A stretch of DNA of 64,000 nt from Ilumatobacter fluminis (lineage in GTDB: Bacteria > Actinomycetota > Acidimicrobiia > Acidimicrobiales > Ilumatobacteraceae), in assembly GCF_004364865.1 (NCBI RefSeq), contig NZ_SOAU01000001.1, positions 2,326,001 through 2,390,000 on the forward strand, in the 5' to 3' direction. The notes under the pieces are model-generated. The model saw only the letters and a list, made by a program, of their open reading frames with translations, had not been told where the DNA came from and made no database searches. Position numbers and translations under genes: made by a program. Shown here one piece after another: positions 29,662 to 58,419 of this stretch. The stretch's first letter is position 1, and each line of letters begins with the position of its first letter.

Positions 29662-30759
29662 TCAGCCCCAGACGGCGAGCACGTCACGGCGCAGATCCTG
29701 GAACGTGCCGTCGATGATCGCCGCCCGCATCTGCTCGAGGAGGCGCAGCGTCCAGGCCACGTTGTGCAGGCTGACCAGGCGCGATGCGGTCGGCTCACCG
29801 ACCTTGAAGAGGTGACGGATGTACCCGCGCGAGTGACGCGCACAGACCGAGCACGTGCACGACACGTCGATCGGCTCGTCGCTGAGGGCGAACTCCTGGC
29901 GCTTCAGATTGACCCGACCCTCGCTCGTGAGTGCGGTGCCGTGGCGCCCGAGGCGGGTCTGCATCACACAGTCGAACTGGTCGACGCCGAGGTTGACGGC
30001 CTCCACGATGGACGCGGGATCACCGACCCCCATCAGGTAGCGAGGACGATTCGTGGGCAGGTGCTCGATGGCGGCCGCCAGCGCCGGGATCATCTCGTCG
30101 CGGGTCTCCCCGACCGACAAGCCGCCGATGCCGTAGCCGTCGAACTCGAGCGCAGCGGTCCGTTCGGCCGATTCGGCGCGCATCACCTCGCTGACACCGC
30201 CCTGCACGATGCCGAACAGTGCCTGGTCGGGGCGGGTGTGATGATCACGGGCCCGCTTCGCCCAGGCGTTCGTGCGCTCGAGTGCCAGGCGGATCACCTC
30301 GGGCGGACTCGGCAGCGGCGGGCACACGTCGAGCACCATCTGGATGTCGGCGCCGAGCAGCTGCTGGGTCTCGACCGCCTTCTCCGGCGTGAAGCGGTGC
30401 TTCGTGCCGTCGTAGGTCGACGCGAACGTGACCCCCTCGTCGTCGACGTCGGGTTCGAGCGAGAACACCTGGAAACCGCCCGAGTCGGTGAGCGTGAGGC
30501 CACTCCACCCGGCGAACTTCGCCAGCCCACCGAAGTGGGCGACGGTGTCGGCGCCGGGCCGCATCATCAGGTGATACGTGTTGCCCAGCACGATCTGCGC
30601 ACCCAGCGCGTCGTAGTCATCGGCGCTCAGGTACTTGATCGCACCACGCGTACCGACCGGCATGAACAGCGGCGTCGTGTAGCTGCCGTTCGCCGTCGTG
30701 GCGGTGCCGGCACGGGCCGTCCCGTCGCTCGCCGTGGTCTCGAACTCGACAACATGCAC
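29662..30759 (-). CDS. tgt: tRNA-guanine transglycosylase
   Basis: 365 aa. Bacterial Tgt: MPVGTRGAIKYLS, the active-site LTLTDSGGFQVFSL, GIVQGG, GGLSVGE and the zinc site CTCSVCARHSRGYIRHL followed by a His. It swaps guanine-34 for a queuine precursor in tRNAs with GUN anticodons. GTG 30759 is the likely start, with TAGGAT 8 nt upstream. It lies downstream of queA in the same direction but is separated by a long inverted repeat. Confidence 0.95.
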   Translation of the reverse strand: MHVVEFETTASDGTARAGTATTANGSYTTPLFMPVGTRGAIKYLSADDYDALGAQIVLGNTYHLMMRPGADTVAHFGGLAKFAGWSGLTLTDSGGFQVFSLEPDVDDEGVTFASTYDGTKHRFTPEKAVETQQLLGADIQMVLDVCPPLPSPPEVIRLALERTNAWAKRARDHHTRPDQALFGIVQGGVSEVMRAESAERTAALEFDGYGIGGLSVGETRDEMIPALAAAIEHLPTNRPRYLMGVGDPASIVEAVNLGVDQFDCVMQTRLGRHGTALTSEGRVNLKRQEFALSDEPIDVSCTCSVCARHSRGYIRHLFKVGEPTASRLVSLHNVAWTLRLLEQMRAAIIDGTFQDLRRDVLAVWG

Positions 30760-30775
30760 GTCGAACGATCCTACG

Positions 30776-30860
30776 GTCGGTTGATGTCAGACATGAACCG
30801 ACCCGACCGGGGACTGCAATGACCGTCCACCTGGTCGGTTCATGTCTGACATCAACCGAC
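30776..30860. repeat. Pair of 27-bp palindromes in inverted orientation (28-bp arms)
   Basis: The arms 30776-30803 and 30833-30860 are exact complements of each other over 28 nt, separated by 29 nt. Each arm is itself nearly palindromic: GTCGGTTGATGTC, a central A, then GACATGAACCGAC. The layout, two palindromes facing each other between genes, resembles REP doublets (BIMEs). It sits in the queA-tgt gap, where a stem would form in a shared transcript. Confidence 0.8.
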
Positions 30861-30863
30861 GTA

Positions 30864-31886
30864 TCAGGCGTGGCGGTCGAGCAGCATGGCGTCGCCGAAG
30901 CTGAGGAACCGGTAGTCGTGCTCGAGCGCCTCGTCGTAGAGCGAGCGCCAGCGGTCGCCGACGAAGGCGTGGATCATCATCAACAGCGTCGTCTTCGGCA
31001 GGTGGAAGTTGGTCATCAACACGTCGACGAGCTGCCAGTCGTAGTCGCCGTGGATGAAGATGTCGGTGCGGCCTTCGAGTTCGCCCCGGGTCGCCGCCGA
31101 TTCCAGCGCCCGCACGCTGGTGGTCCCCACACACACCACGCGTCCGCCGGCTGCCCGTGTGGCCAGGCACCGGTCCATCGTCTGCGGCGGCACCCGGTAC
31201 CGCTCGGTGTGCATCCGGTGCTCGGTGGGGTCGTCCTCCATCACTGGACGGAAGGTGTCGAGCCCGACGACGAGCTCGACCTTCGCCGTCTCGACGCCGC
31301 GTTCTGCCAACCGGTCGAGCAACTCGGACGTGAAGTGGAGTCCGGCCGTCGGCGCCGCTGCGGAACCGGGCTCGCGGGCGTACACCGTCTGGTAGCGGTC
31401 GGGGTCGCCGAGCCGTTCGGTGATGTACGGCGGGAGCGGCATCTCGCCGTGGTCGGCCAGCACGTCGAGCGAGTCGATCGATCCGAGCACCGTGACCGTG
31501 AACGTGTCGCCGGCTTCGGTTCGCTCCCCCATCTCGACGACCGGTGTCCCGTCGGGGGCGAGCAGCTGCTCCCCCGGCTTCAACTTGCGAGCGGGACGCA
31601 CCATTGCCTCCCACACCCGGCGTTCGCCGTCGAGCGGTTCGAGCATCAGGACCTCGGCCTTGCCGCCGGTCGCCCGTTGCACCGAGAGGCGCGCCGGGAT
31701 GACCTTCGTCTCGTTCACGACGAGCAGGTCGCCCGGTCGCAGGATCTCCGGGAGATCGCGGACCCGTCGGTGGTCGGGTGCGTCGCTCCCCCGGTCGACC
31801 AGGAGCCGTGCAGCGTCGCGCGGCTCGATCGGCGTCTGGGCGATGCGCTCGTCGGGGAGGTCATAGTCGAAGTCGCTCAGCAACAT
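30864..31886 (-). CDS. queA: S-adenosylmethionine:tRNA ribosyltransferase-isomerase
   Basis: 340 aa. Typical QueA blocks: DFDYDLPDERIAQTPIEPRD, DLLVVNETKVIPARL, PTAGLHFTSELLDRL, GTTSVRALES and TNFHLPKTTLLMMIHAFVG. It adds the epoxycyclopentanediol of queuosine to tRNA, using SAM as ribosyl donor, after Tgt acts. Gene order queA-tgt-yajC-secD-secF equals that of many distant bacteria. TAGCCT is 9 nt upstream of ATG 31886. None of the preQ1-synthesis genes are in this window. Confidence 0.95.
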   Translation of the reverse strand: MLLSDFDYDLPDERIAQTPIEPRDAARLLVDRGSDAPDHRRVRDLPEILRPGDLLVVNETKVIPARLSVQRATGGKAEVLMLEPLDGERRVWEAMVRPARKLKPGEQLLAPDGTPVVEMGERTEAGDTFTVTVLGSIDSLDVLADHGEMPLPPYITERLGDPDRYQTVYAREPGSAAAPTAGLHFTSELLDRLAERGVETAKVELVVGLDTFRPVMEDDPTEHRMHTERYRVPPQTMDRCLATRAAGGRVVCVGTTSVRALESAATRGELEGRTDIFIHGDYDWQLVDVLMTNFHLPKTTLLMMIHAFVGDRWRSLYDEALEHDYRFLSFGDAMLLDRHA

Positions 31887-31934
31887 GGCCGGACCAGGCT
31901 ACGGCTGCCACGTTTCGGACGGGGCTCGCTGTGG

Positions 31935-31940
31935 GAAGAT
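31935..31940 (+). promoter_or_regulatory. -10-like element GAAGAT
   Basis: GAAGAT ends 6 nt before ATG 31947. It keeps the A2 and T6 of the local consensus but is weak. Confidence 0.3.
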
Positions 31941-31946
31941 CGAGCC

Positions 31947-32648
31947 ATGGCTTCCCGTTCCGTTCCCGTTCCCTGCGACGACGCCGGCTCGATGCCGCTG
32001 CATGTCTGGGTCCCCGAGGGCGGCTCGGGTCCGGGCATCCTCCTGATCCAGGAGATCTTCGGTGTCGGCCCGTACATCCGGTCGGTCGCCCAGCGCCTCG
32101 TCGACGCCGGTTACGTCGTCGGCGCCCCCGAGGTCTTCTGGCGGTTCGCGCCGGGTTGGGAGGCGTCCCACGACCAGGCCGGCCTCGAGGCGTCGGTCGC
32201 CAAGGCCGGCGAACTGAACCCGGCCACGGCCGCCACCGACTGCGCCCGAGCGTTCGCCGCGTTGGAAGAACTCGACGAGGTGGTCGGCACGCCCGGCGTC
32301 ATGGGGTTCTGCCTCGGCGGCACGCTCGCCTGGTCGGTCGCCGCCGGCGCTCAGCCGGCCGTGTGCGTCAGCTACTACGGCTCGGGCGTGCCCCAGATGC
32401 TCGACCAGGTCGACAACGTGTCGTGCCCGACCCTGTTCCACTTCGGCAACGCCGACGCCTACACCCCGAACGAGGGCGTCGACGCCCTGAACGCCGCCAT
32501 CGACGGGCGGGACAACTTCGTGCTCAACGTCGAGAACGCCGGCCACGCCTTCGACAACCACGAGTCGGAGATGTTCTACGACGAATCGGCCGCCAACGCC
32601 GCCTGGGCCAAGACGATGGCGTTCCTCGGCACCCACCTCCCCGCCTGA
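31947..32648 (+). CDS. Dienelactone hydrolase family protein
   Basis: 233 aa, alpha/beta-hydrolase. The nucleophile elbow is GFCLGG (Cys as in dienelactone hydrolases); the strand-1 region GPGILLIQEIFGVGPYIRSV carries the conserved Glu; Asp is in FGNADAYTP and His in GHAFDN. Family members cleave dienelactones in chlorocatechol or related routes, but many have other esters as substrate, and no ring-cleavage genes lie nearby. It and the next gene interrupt the ruvB-queA order on the opposite strand. Confidence 0.85.
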   Translation: MASRSVPVPCDDAGSMPLHVWVPEGGSGPGILLIQEIFGVGPYIRSVAQRLVDAGYVVGAPEVFWRFAPGWEASHDQAGLEASVAKAGELNPATAATDCARAFAALEELDEVVGTPGVMGFCLGGTLAWSVAAGAQPAVCVSYYGSGVPQMLDQVDNVSCPTLFHFGNADAYTPNEGVDALNAAIDGRDNFVLNVENAGHAFDNHESEMFYDESAANAAWAKTMAFLGTHLPA

Positions 32649-32675
32649 CACGGATGGGGTCAGACCCCATCCGTG
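32649..32675. repeat. 27-bp palindrome with GTCAGAC core
   Basis: CACGGATGGGGTC, a central A, and its exact complement. It starts at the dienelactone-hydrolase stop region and has the same 13-1-13 plan and GTCAGAC core as the two copies at 30776-30860. GAATCTTT follows, so it could terminate transcription. Confidence 0.75.
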
Positions 32676-58317: not shown

Positions 58318-58344
58318 GAAACCCCCTGCTGAGCAGGGGGTTTC
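58318..58344 (-). terminator. Intrinsic terminator of tRNA-Gly
   Basis: GAAACCCCCTGC and its complement form a 12-bp stem with a TGA loop, 2 nt after the tRNA 3' end, and are followed on the minus strand by CTTCGTTTTCG. Confidence 0.85.
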
Positions 58345-58346
58345 GG

Positions 58347-58419
58347 AGCGGACGACGGGATTCGAACCCGCGACCCTCACCTTGGCAAGGTGATGCTCTA
58401 CCAACTGAGCCACGTCCGC
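58347..58419 (-). tRNA. tRNA-Gly(GCC)
   Basis: 73 nt on the minus strand. Acceptor strands GCGGACG and CGTCCGC pair fully, discriminator U. D arm GCTCAGTTGGTAGAGC, anticodon stem TCACC/GGTGA with loop TTGCCAA (anticodon GCC), T arm CGGGTTCGAATCCCG. The CCA is not fully encoded (CCG follows the discriminator). Confidence 0.96.

Follow-up and report, generated by a model that had tools for sequence, protein, structure and literature searches.

REPINs of Pseudomonas are pairs of inverted units, of the kind known as repetitive extragenic palindromes (REPs), which form a hairpin, lie between genes, have a spacer that is conserved more in length than in sequence, and are linked to a REP-associated tyrosine transposase (RAYT) (Bertels and Rainey, 2011; PMC3116915). 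Their definition and features are set out in sections of PMC3116915 and PMC8049555. In the TIRYT/TIRtron, as outlined in part of another paper (Di Nocera and co-workers, 2013; PMC3733652), a RAYT-like gene is flanked by inverted repeats unrelated to the GTAG REPs; some of these repeats are self-complementary, and some are found in genomic families as dimers or clusters. A family of 27-bp palindromes in the actinobacterium Ilumatobacter fluminis resembles both systems in most of these respects. We analyzed a stretch of 64,000 nucleotides, here termed the window (bases 2326001-2390000 of the single 4,775,416-base contig of this genome, G000), where two inverted palindromic units lie in the gap between queA and tgt. 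We conclude, with a probability of about 0.83, that this queA-tgt pair is a member of a non-autonomous REPIN-like population that is, or was, copied by a RAYT, and that resident elements are later converted or overwritten in place. The population is REPIN-like with an unusual unit, and is probably served by a TIRYT-like RAYT.

Anatomy and copy number of the palindromes

An earlier note, made from the letters of the window alone, had listed three palindromes with a 13-1-13 plan and a GTC-A/T-GAC core, two in the queA-tgt gap and one at 32649-32675. All three are present where it placed them, and its finer points also held: positions 30776-30803 and 30833-30860 are 100% inverted copies over 28 nucleotides, 29 nucleotides apart, and palindromy is exact at 32649 and nearly exact at 30776 (0 and 1 mismatched pair of 13 per unit). 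The second unit of the queA-tgt pair likewise has one mismatched pair of 13. With up to three mismatches the 28-mer is matched three times in the window. The matches fall at two places, and one of them is the first unit seen from the opposite strand; 100 shuffles of the window contained none, and the repeat is therefore more than chance. The bare core GTCWGAC was found seven times in the window, below the 17.3 occurrences expected. The single-stranded DNA of the whole queA-tgt element is predicted to fold into a single long hairpin of -36.3 kcal/mol (z -10.2).

Where the earlier note had allowed for no further copies, about 200 were found genome-wide. A search for CGGNTGNNGTCAGACNNCANCCG that tolerated up to two mismatches gave 205 forward matches in the window genome compared to one for the reversed control pattern. 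Units were defined as lying within four mismatches of the 27-bp consensus in 75 stretches taken around listed matches; 199 of the 205 pattern matches fall in the sequence examined, and the remaining six are without a location. This placed 196 units in 92 clusters. One additional pair was found after the cluster set was fixed and is outside the 92.

The clusters have a uniform anatomy. Seventy-six contain an A-to-T pair, that is GTC-A-GAC followed by GTC-T-GAC; two have only the opposite order, and ten consist of a single unit. The centers of the 76 pairs are spaced by 55 (9 pairs), 56 (36), 57 (21), 58 (9) or 60 (1) nucleotides, so that 66 fall within 55-57 and 75 within 55-58, with spacers of 28-33 nucleotides. 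The unit has sharp edges 13 bases to either side of the center. Column information is close to zero outside the unit and in most of the spacer; the columns adjoining the unit reach at most 0.28 bit. Values of up to 0.58 bit occur in the final three columns of the comparison, which in shorter elements already belong to the start of the partner. A single conserved spacer sequence was ruled out, since most spacer columns carry no information. At position -14 no base is conserved (G 57, C 45, T 30 and A 20 of 152), no conserved base pattern corresponding to the GT[AG]G foot tetranucleotide was seen outside the unit, and the unit itself starts with GTCGG. The anatomy is that of a REPIN lacking the GT[AG]G foot.

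In 53 of the 76 pairs each unit is an exact inverted copy of its partner, compared to a mean of 9.3 when partners were dealt randomly (maximum 19 in 5000 trials). Partners differ on average by 0.33 bases, and the two halves of one unit by 0.84 of 13 pairs. It is therefore the match between the two units, and with it the long hairpin, that is best preserved.

A 27-bp palindromic repeat with a spacer of about 29 nucleotides also recalls a CRISPR repeat-spacer-repeat unit standing on its own. We regard this as extremely improbable: the repeats are dispersed over 92 loci, inverted and not direct, and mostly two to a locus (cas genes were not searched for), and some spacers are common to a near copy.

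Arm types

The 193 typed units of the window genome carry few arm types, GAT/ATC (97 units), GAG/CCC (64) and GGG/CCC (12) with minor others, and 50 of them are one identical 27-mer. The commonest type is GAG/CCC in the sister genome G004 (49 of 107 units) and GAT/CAG in the sister genome G003 (19 of 41). The earlier note had proposed that structure and not sequence is conserved; within the genome, sequence is strongly conserved too, and the arms are unlike only between families tied to different RAYT genes. Nor do the three palindromes of the window form one family, as it had supposed. The queA-tgt pair belongs to the genome-filling GTCGG...CCGAC family, while the solitary palindrome at 32649-32675 is of a different type (CACGG...CCGTG, outer bases CAC...GTG) with two copies among the units found, the other being at genome position 1534622.

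The arm type of the queA-tgt pair, GAT/ATG, is rare (4 of 193 units), and the only other pair that carries it lies at genome position 1356190. That pair is also the nearest relative of the queA-tgt pair by spacer among 75 others (score 10.5; the next scored 6.5). From the shared rare arm type and the nearest spacer, the two elements look like copies of each other, 1 Mb apart. A further arm type, GTCGGATGGGGTCAGACCAGATCCGAC, resembling minor units of G004, was seen in a pair at genome positions 2436532 and 2436589 (L304).

Placement in the genome and distribution among relatives

Genes were called with a simple home-made codon-usage finder that sets some starts wrongly, including those of queA and the dienelactone hydrolase (DLH) family gene, and the placement figures are approximate. 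By midpoint, 89 of the 92 clusters are intergenic (36 in convergent gaps, 44 in tandem and 9 in divergent ones) and three fall inside predicted genes, which is far from the equal frequency in coding sequence that the earlier note had held open. For comparison, 91.7% of the bases of the window were called coding, and its 58 gaps comprise 13 convergent, 33 tandem and 12 divergent ones. Spacers are more alike in nearby elements, with mean scores of 5.9 below 5 kb (n = 18), 2.5 at 5-20 kb (n = 38) and 0.69 beyond 100 kb; at least one of the comparisons below 5 kb is a duplication that takes in flanking sequence.

An arc at 1.807-3.033 Mb, which makes up 26% of the chromosome and contains the window, holds 4 of 93 located clusters. 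The arc lies roughly opposite dnaA at 4.681 Mb, which was used to orient the chromosome as GC skew gave no clear terminus. With all six unlocated matches added to the arc the count is 10 of 99 (binomial p about 1e-4, for an arc picked post hoc). A simulation of uniform placement, run before the fourth cluster in the arc was known, gave 0 of 20000.

The family is narrowly distributed. The window genome has 188 forward matches with one mismatch allowed; seven of its nine genus relatives, a small partial genome among them, have 0-1. Among 60 relatives, eight had a one-mismatch match; G004 had 143 and G003 33 forward matches, and the six others one or two in all. A scan of 296 genomes of the class, a draw that did not include G003 and G004, for the bare pair GTCAGAC-N44-54-GTCTGAC found 77 in the window genome and one or two in 13 others. 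Three of these pairs, two in G021 (L172, L186) and one in G074 (L183), which belong to other genera, follow the full plan, A then T with 0-2 of 13 mismatched pairs per unit, and have quite different arms, for instance GTCATTCGGTGTC-T-GACACCGAATGAC.

Elements at the ends of genes with a strong predicted fold could be two-way transcription terminators, or hairpins at mRNA ends, kept for the sake of expression. The excess in convergent gaps (36 of 89 intergenic clusters against 13 of 58 gaps in the window) and the shortage in divergent ones (9 of 89 against 12 of 58) would agree with this, but terminators would not be expected to share 27 bp across unrelated genes, to have species-specific arms, to be present in such numbers here and be nearly missing from seven of nine genus relatives, or to lie in nine divergent gaps. 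We find this explanation improbable, although an element may act as a terminator as a side effect.

Still less probable are sites for a dimeric protein such as a regulator or a nucleoid protein, the alternative offered by the earlier note, which we do not favor. Perfect or near-perfect palindromes around a constant core would suit such a protein, and so would their scarcity in the chromosome quarter opposite dnaA. It would leave unexplained the low number in divergent gaps, the near-fixed spacing and A-to-T order of the inverted pairs, the arms that differ between species, and the presence of these units on both sides of a RAYT gene, described below.

Association with RAYT genes

The window genome has one Y1_Tnp gene, an open frame of 272 amino acids from its ATG (match at genome positions 4552110-4552430), and a RAYT profile search to E 10 found only this gene. 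Its only NCBIfam match was to the REP-associated tyrosine transposase at 53.4 bits, below the 80-bit cut-off. The gene is flanked by a different repeat, GGGTCAGGTG..., with zero GTCWGAC. This repeat, which reads GGGTCAGGTG[C/T]CAGAGGTGACG..., lies at 1270-1410 and 2270-2430 of L015, and has more copies elsewhere, one of them beside a broken palindrome pair (L019). A third repeat, GG[AG]TC[TA]GGCACCT, gave 19 matches in 828 kb of the window genome (e.g., L298 near 6.3 kb) and resembles, by eye, the repeat that flanks the G003 RAYT gene of L167.

Y1_Tnp genes were found in 8 of the 10 genomes of the genus, with 11 matches in total. One G003 gene (L160) scored far higher and looks like an IS200 gene of the ordinary kind. 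Seven of the ten other RAYT-like genes have palindromes within about 300 bp, with a GYC-W-GRC center and arms specific to the gene. In G006 one gene has GTCACGTTGTGTC-W-GAC... on both sides and a second has TGTTACAG...; in G002 one has CGTAACGG...GTGCC-W-GGCAC... on both sides and a second also has GYC-W-GRC palindromes; the genes of G008, G001 and G004 lie near such palindromes as well. By the same criterion the genes of G000 and G005 and one of G003 have no nearby GYC-W-GRC palindrome. Inverted repeats flank the RAYT-like gene at the G004, G006, G002, G008 and G001 loci, and not at the RAYT of the window genome.

The RAYT of G004 is bracketed by pairs of GTCGG[A/T]TGAGGTC-A-GACCCCAACCGAC, which is the same family as the window element. 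In G003, the C-terminus of a RAYT that runs off the contig end lies beside a pair of this family, and the gene neighboring it is, by eye, the same as in G004. The RAYT gene with the same flanking palindrome that the earlier note had called for is thus found in the sister genome G004, while the gene of the window genome has another repeat. Its broader proposal of REP/BIME elements moved by a RAYT is largely borne out, with corrections: the copies are dispersed, almost wholly intergenic and mostly inverted pairs, and a RAYT is bracketed by them in a sister; the GT[AG]G foot is lacking, the flanks of the genome's own RAYT differ, and mobilization by a RAYT is inferred from these features.

We also examined a wider set of 80 named RAYT loci, using 300-bp flanks and a little of the gene ends (78 upstream and 77 downstream flanks were long enough), and sought palindromes without regard to the center sequence. 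Of 31 palindromes, 22 have a GYCWGRC center, in 13 loci. Seven of these 13 are the genus loci already known; this leaves 10 of 19 palindromes as the independent part. They come from 6 of 71 loci, five labeled as acidimicrobial and one as deltaproteobacterial.

The RAYT proteins are long, with NHYH or NHFH and the tyrosine motif Y---N. A loss of the catalytic tyrosine was considered and dropped, as the Y---N tyrosine is invariant in eight aligned proteins; this comparison (A1, A2) does not include the RAYTs of G005 (L163) and G004 (L166) or the IS200-type gene of G003 (L160). A sequence search for a solved structure matching the RAYT gave two hits, a designed repeat protein and a ciliary protein (E 0.001 and 0.12), which were judged irrelevant.

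Together these features suggest how the elements would have spread. An element consists of two inverted 27-bp units around a spacer of 28-33 nucleotides, kept in length and not in sequence, and the single center base, A in the first unit and T in the second, gives it polarity and would present CAG or CTG in the hairpin loop. Copying, present or past, would proceed via single-stranded DNA by a TIRYT-like RAYT, a Y1/HUH transposase. RAYT lineages would each have their own arms and often a common GYC-W-GRC center, and the loop is a plausible recognition feature.

Shared sites, half-unit scars and a possible succession of arm types

Site by site comparison was possible with the two sister genomes, which are 79% (G003) and 81% (G004) complete. 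In the 20 G003 and 40 G004 stretches examined there are 71 sister clusters, of which 33 map by both flanks to window-genome stretches; the other 38 were not counted as empty. At 28 of the 33 the window genome has palindromes at the same site (24 G004, 4 G003; 25 distinct sites), a count of coinciding positions and not the share of common elements, as the window-genome stretches were chosen for palindromes. The window-genome site is empty for the remaining five, one of which (L287_0) rests on a false, non-palindromic unit.

Both genomes have a full pair in 24 comparisons, covering 21 distinct window-genome spacers. Orthologous spacers resemble each other more than re-paired spacers do (1 of 5000 permutations), and in the 17 comparisons with two or more arm differences that recur, mirrored, in both units the spacers were still above chance (28 of 5000).

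In the queA-tgt gap, G000, G003 and G004 each have a pair with arms of their own, while the gap is without an element in the five other relatives that have it (G001, G002, G005, G008 and G009). In G006 queA is followed by a different sequence, and the partial G007 yielded no queA. The spacer of G000 matches that of G003 (empirical p 0.007) and not that of G004 (p 0.38), and on the tgt side G000 and G003 are identical at 13 of 15 bases.

Ten-base half-units lie directly outside some units. With a loose pattern, G000 has them at 10 of 195 units, G004 at 8 of 109 and G003 at 4 of 42; on the spacer side the same pattern gave 2, 1 and 0, and further half-units lie 4-5 bases off. In a strict test with GTCGGTTGAT, they adjoin seven GAG units in G004, and two GAG, two GGG and five GAT units in G000, with none in G003. 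No GAT/ATC unit is found among the 105 of 107 G004 units with a listed type, while the window genome has both GAT/ATC and GAG/CCC. GAT scars beside GAG units, in a genome where none of the typed units is GAT/ATC, may mean that G004 had an older GAT population which was replaced. The scars could have arisen by insertion at GAT|GTC or by slippage.

The shared sites, the mirrored arms and the scars suggest rewriting or replacement in place. After insertion the spacer would drift while the two units stay matched, and elements already in residence would be converted to, or overwritten by, the current arm type of the species, which would leave half-unit scars. A more specific reading, which we hold tentatively and at somewhat less than even odds, is that site and spacer are kept while both units are rewritten together to the new arm type in each species, either by unit insertion into old cores, giving the junction GAT|GTC, or by conversion templated by the hairpin.

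Several observations weigh against these interpretations. The sole RAYT detected in the window genome has another flanking repeat, so that a mobilizer with matching flanks is not known there, and the G004 RAYT is broken by one internal stop. In the wider set 61 of the 80 RAYT loci have no palindrome by our criterion, and six have other centers only. The five GAT scars that adjoin GAT units in G000 do not support succession. Taken singly, only 6 of the 24 orthologous spacer comparisons reach p 0.022 or below, and only 8 of the 28 shared clusters have flanks that align directly beside the element (10 or more of 15 bases on one side; on both sides in one).

Because so few adjacent flanks align, independent reinsertion in the same gaps has to be considered for most sites. 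Each species would have hit preferred gaps repeatedly with its own type, and the arms would differ with no orthologous element being involved. The 18 comparisons with p above 0.022 agree with this as well, but the orthologous spacers as a set exceed chance, also where arms differ, and at queA-tgt both the spacer and the tgt side match between G000 and G003. We consider gap preference rather unlikely overall, though a stronger contender than any of the functional explanations discussed above.

Features of the window

The features are collected in Table 1. The solitary palindrome is predicted to fold into a hairpin with a 12-bp stem and a three-base CAG loop. It was not seen 3' of the DLH-family gene in the six relatives with a readable gene end (G001, G002, G003, G006, G008 and G009). 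At the gathering threshold, the only known RNA family in the window is a tRNA at 58347-58419. Just past this minus-strand gene is a perfect palindrome, AACCCCCTGCTGAGCAGGGGGTT, at 58320-58342, perhaps a terminator.

Table 1. Palindromic elements and adjoining genes, in window coordinates.
Feature	Position	Strand	Remarks
First palindromic unit, GTCGGTTGATGTC-A-GACATGAACCGAC, A-centered	30776..30802	none	One mismatched pair of 13
Spacer, 31 nucleotides	30803..30833	none	Between the units
Second palindromic unit, T-centered	30834..30860	none	Exact inverted copy of the first
Complete REPIN-like element	30776..30860	none	Predicted fold of single-stranded DNA, one long hairpin
Solitary perfect palindrome, CACGGATGGGGTC-A-GACCCCATCCGTG	32649..32675	none	Directly follows the DLH-family stop codon
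tgt, tRNA guanosine(34) transglycosylase	29662..30759	-	Passes NCBIfam cut-off; adjoins the element
queA	30864..31886	-	Passes NCBIfam cut-off; adjoins the element
DLH-family gene	31947..32648	+	Precedes the solitary palindrome

Comparison with known systems

A literature search over titles and the starts of abstracts, with most subscription papers outside its coverage, found no report of this palindrome family. REPs in general are not new to this group, as acidimicrobial REPs by another definition are already known: a table of the RepRanger paper (PMC12306157) that counts REPs so defined names Acidimicrobium ferrooxidans. The reference list of that paper includes a 1988 title which already asks whether REPs evolve by gene conversion. 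What seems noteworthy here is that arm types apparently succeed one another in place where sites are shared. With sites common to three related genomes, the concerted evolution of small repeats becomes readable site by site from sequence. The family also extends REPIN-like populations to a kind of RAYT, judged by motif only, that had no REPs in one broad survey, and suggests that recognition there depends on the hairpin apex (GYC-W-GRC) as the constant feature, and not on a foot tetranucleotide.

That survey covers TnpAY1 subclass 2.1 (Quentin and co-workers, 2018; PMC6006769), which the RAYTs described here resemble in NHYH or NHFH, Y---N and the long protein, a membership resting on motif only. 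The part of the paper that deals with the subclass reports no REP-like repeats near its genes, whereas palindromes accompany seven of the ten RAYT-like genes of this genus. Its main text does not contain the words Actinobacteria, Ilumatobacter or Acidimicrob-.

From the CGTC REPs, as characterized in a section of PMC3733652 (an end CGTC tag, a stem of 8-9 bp, a loop of 4-5 and no linked transposase), the family differs in that position -14 is unconserved, the one solitary unit that was folded has a 12-bp stem and a three-base loop, and a RAYT is linked to it in G004. With the BIMEs, E. coli REPs and TnpAREP it shares paired hairpins and perhaps recognition by the loop, which is stated for some REPtrons in part of PMC8266576; unlike them it has neither GTAG nor a conserved stem bulge. 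Compared to the Pseudomonas REPINs, as presented in sections of PMC3116915, this family has near-perfect 27-bp palindromes as its units, with GTC-W-GAC as the constant center and without a GT[AG]G foot, and they are most often spaced by 56-57 bp instead of 71 or 110 bp. The TIRYT motif GGGGWSAS, which the relevant part of PMC3733652 gives as common to some TIRs only, fits GGGGTCAG of the GGG-type units, but the two main types, GAT and GAG, read GATGTCAG and GAGGTCAG and fall outside it. Set beside these systems, the family is an actinobacterial form of REPIN-like element with a unit type of its own, which two sister species carry in some of the same gaps, often in their own version of the palindrome.

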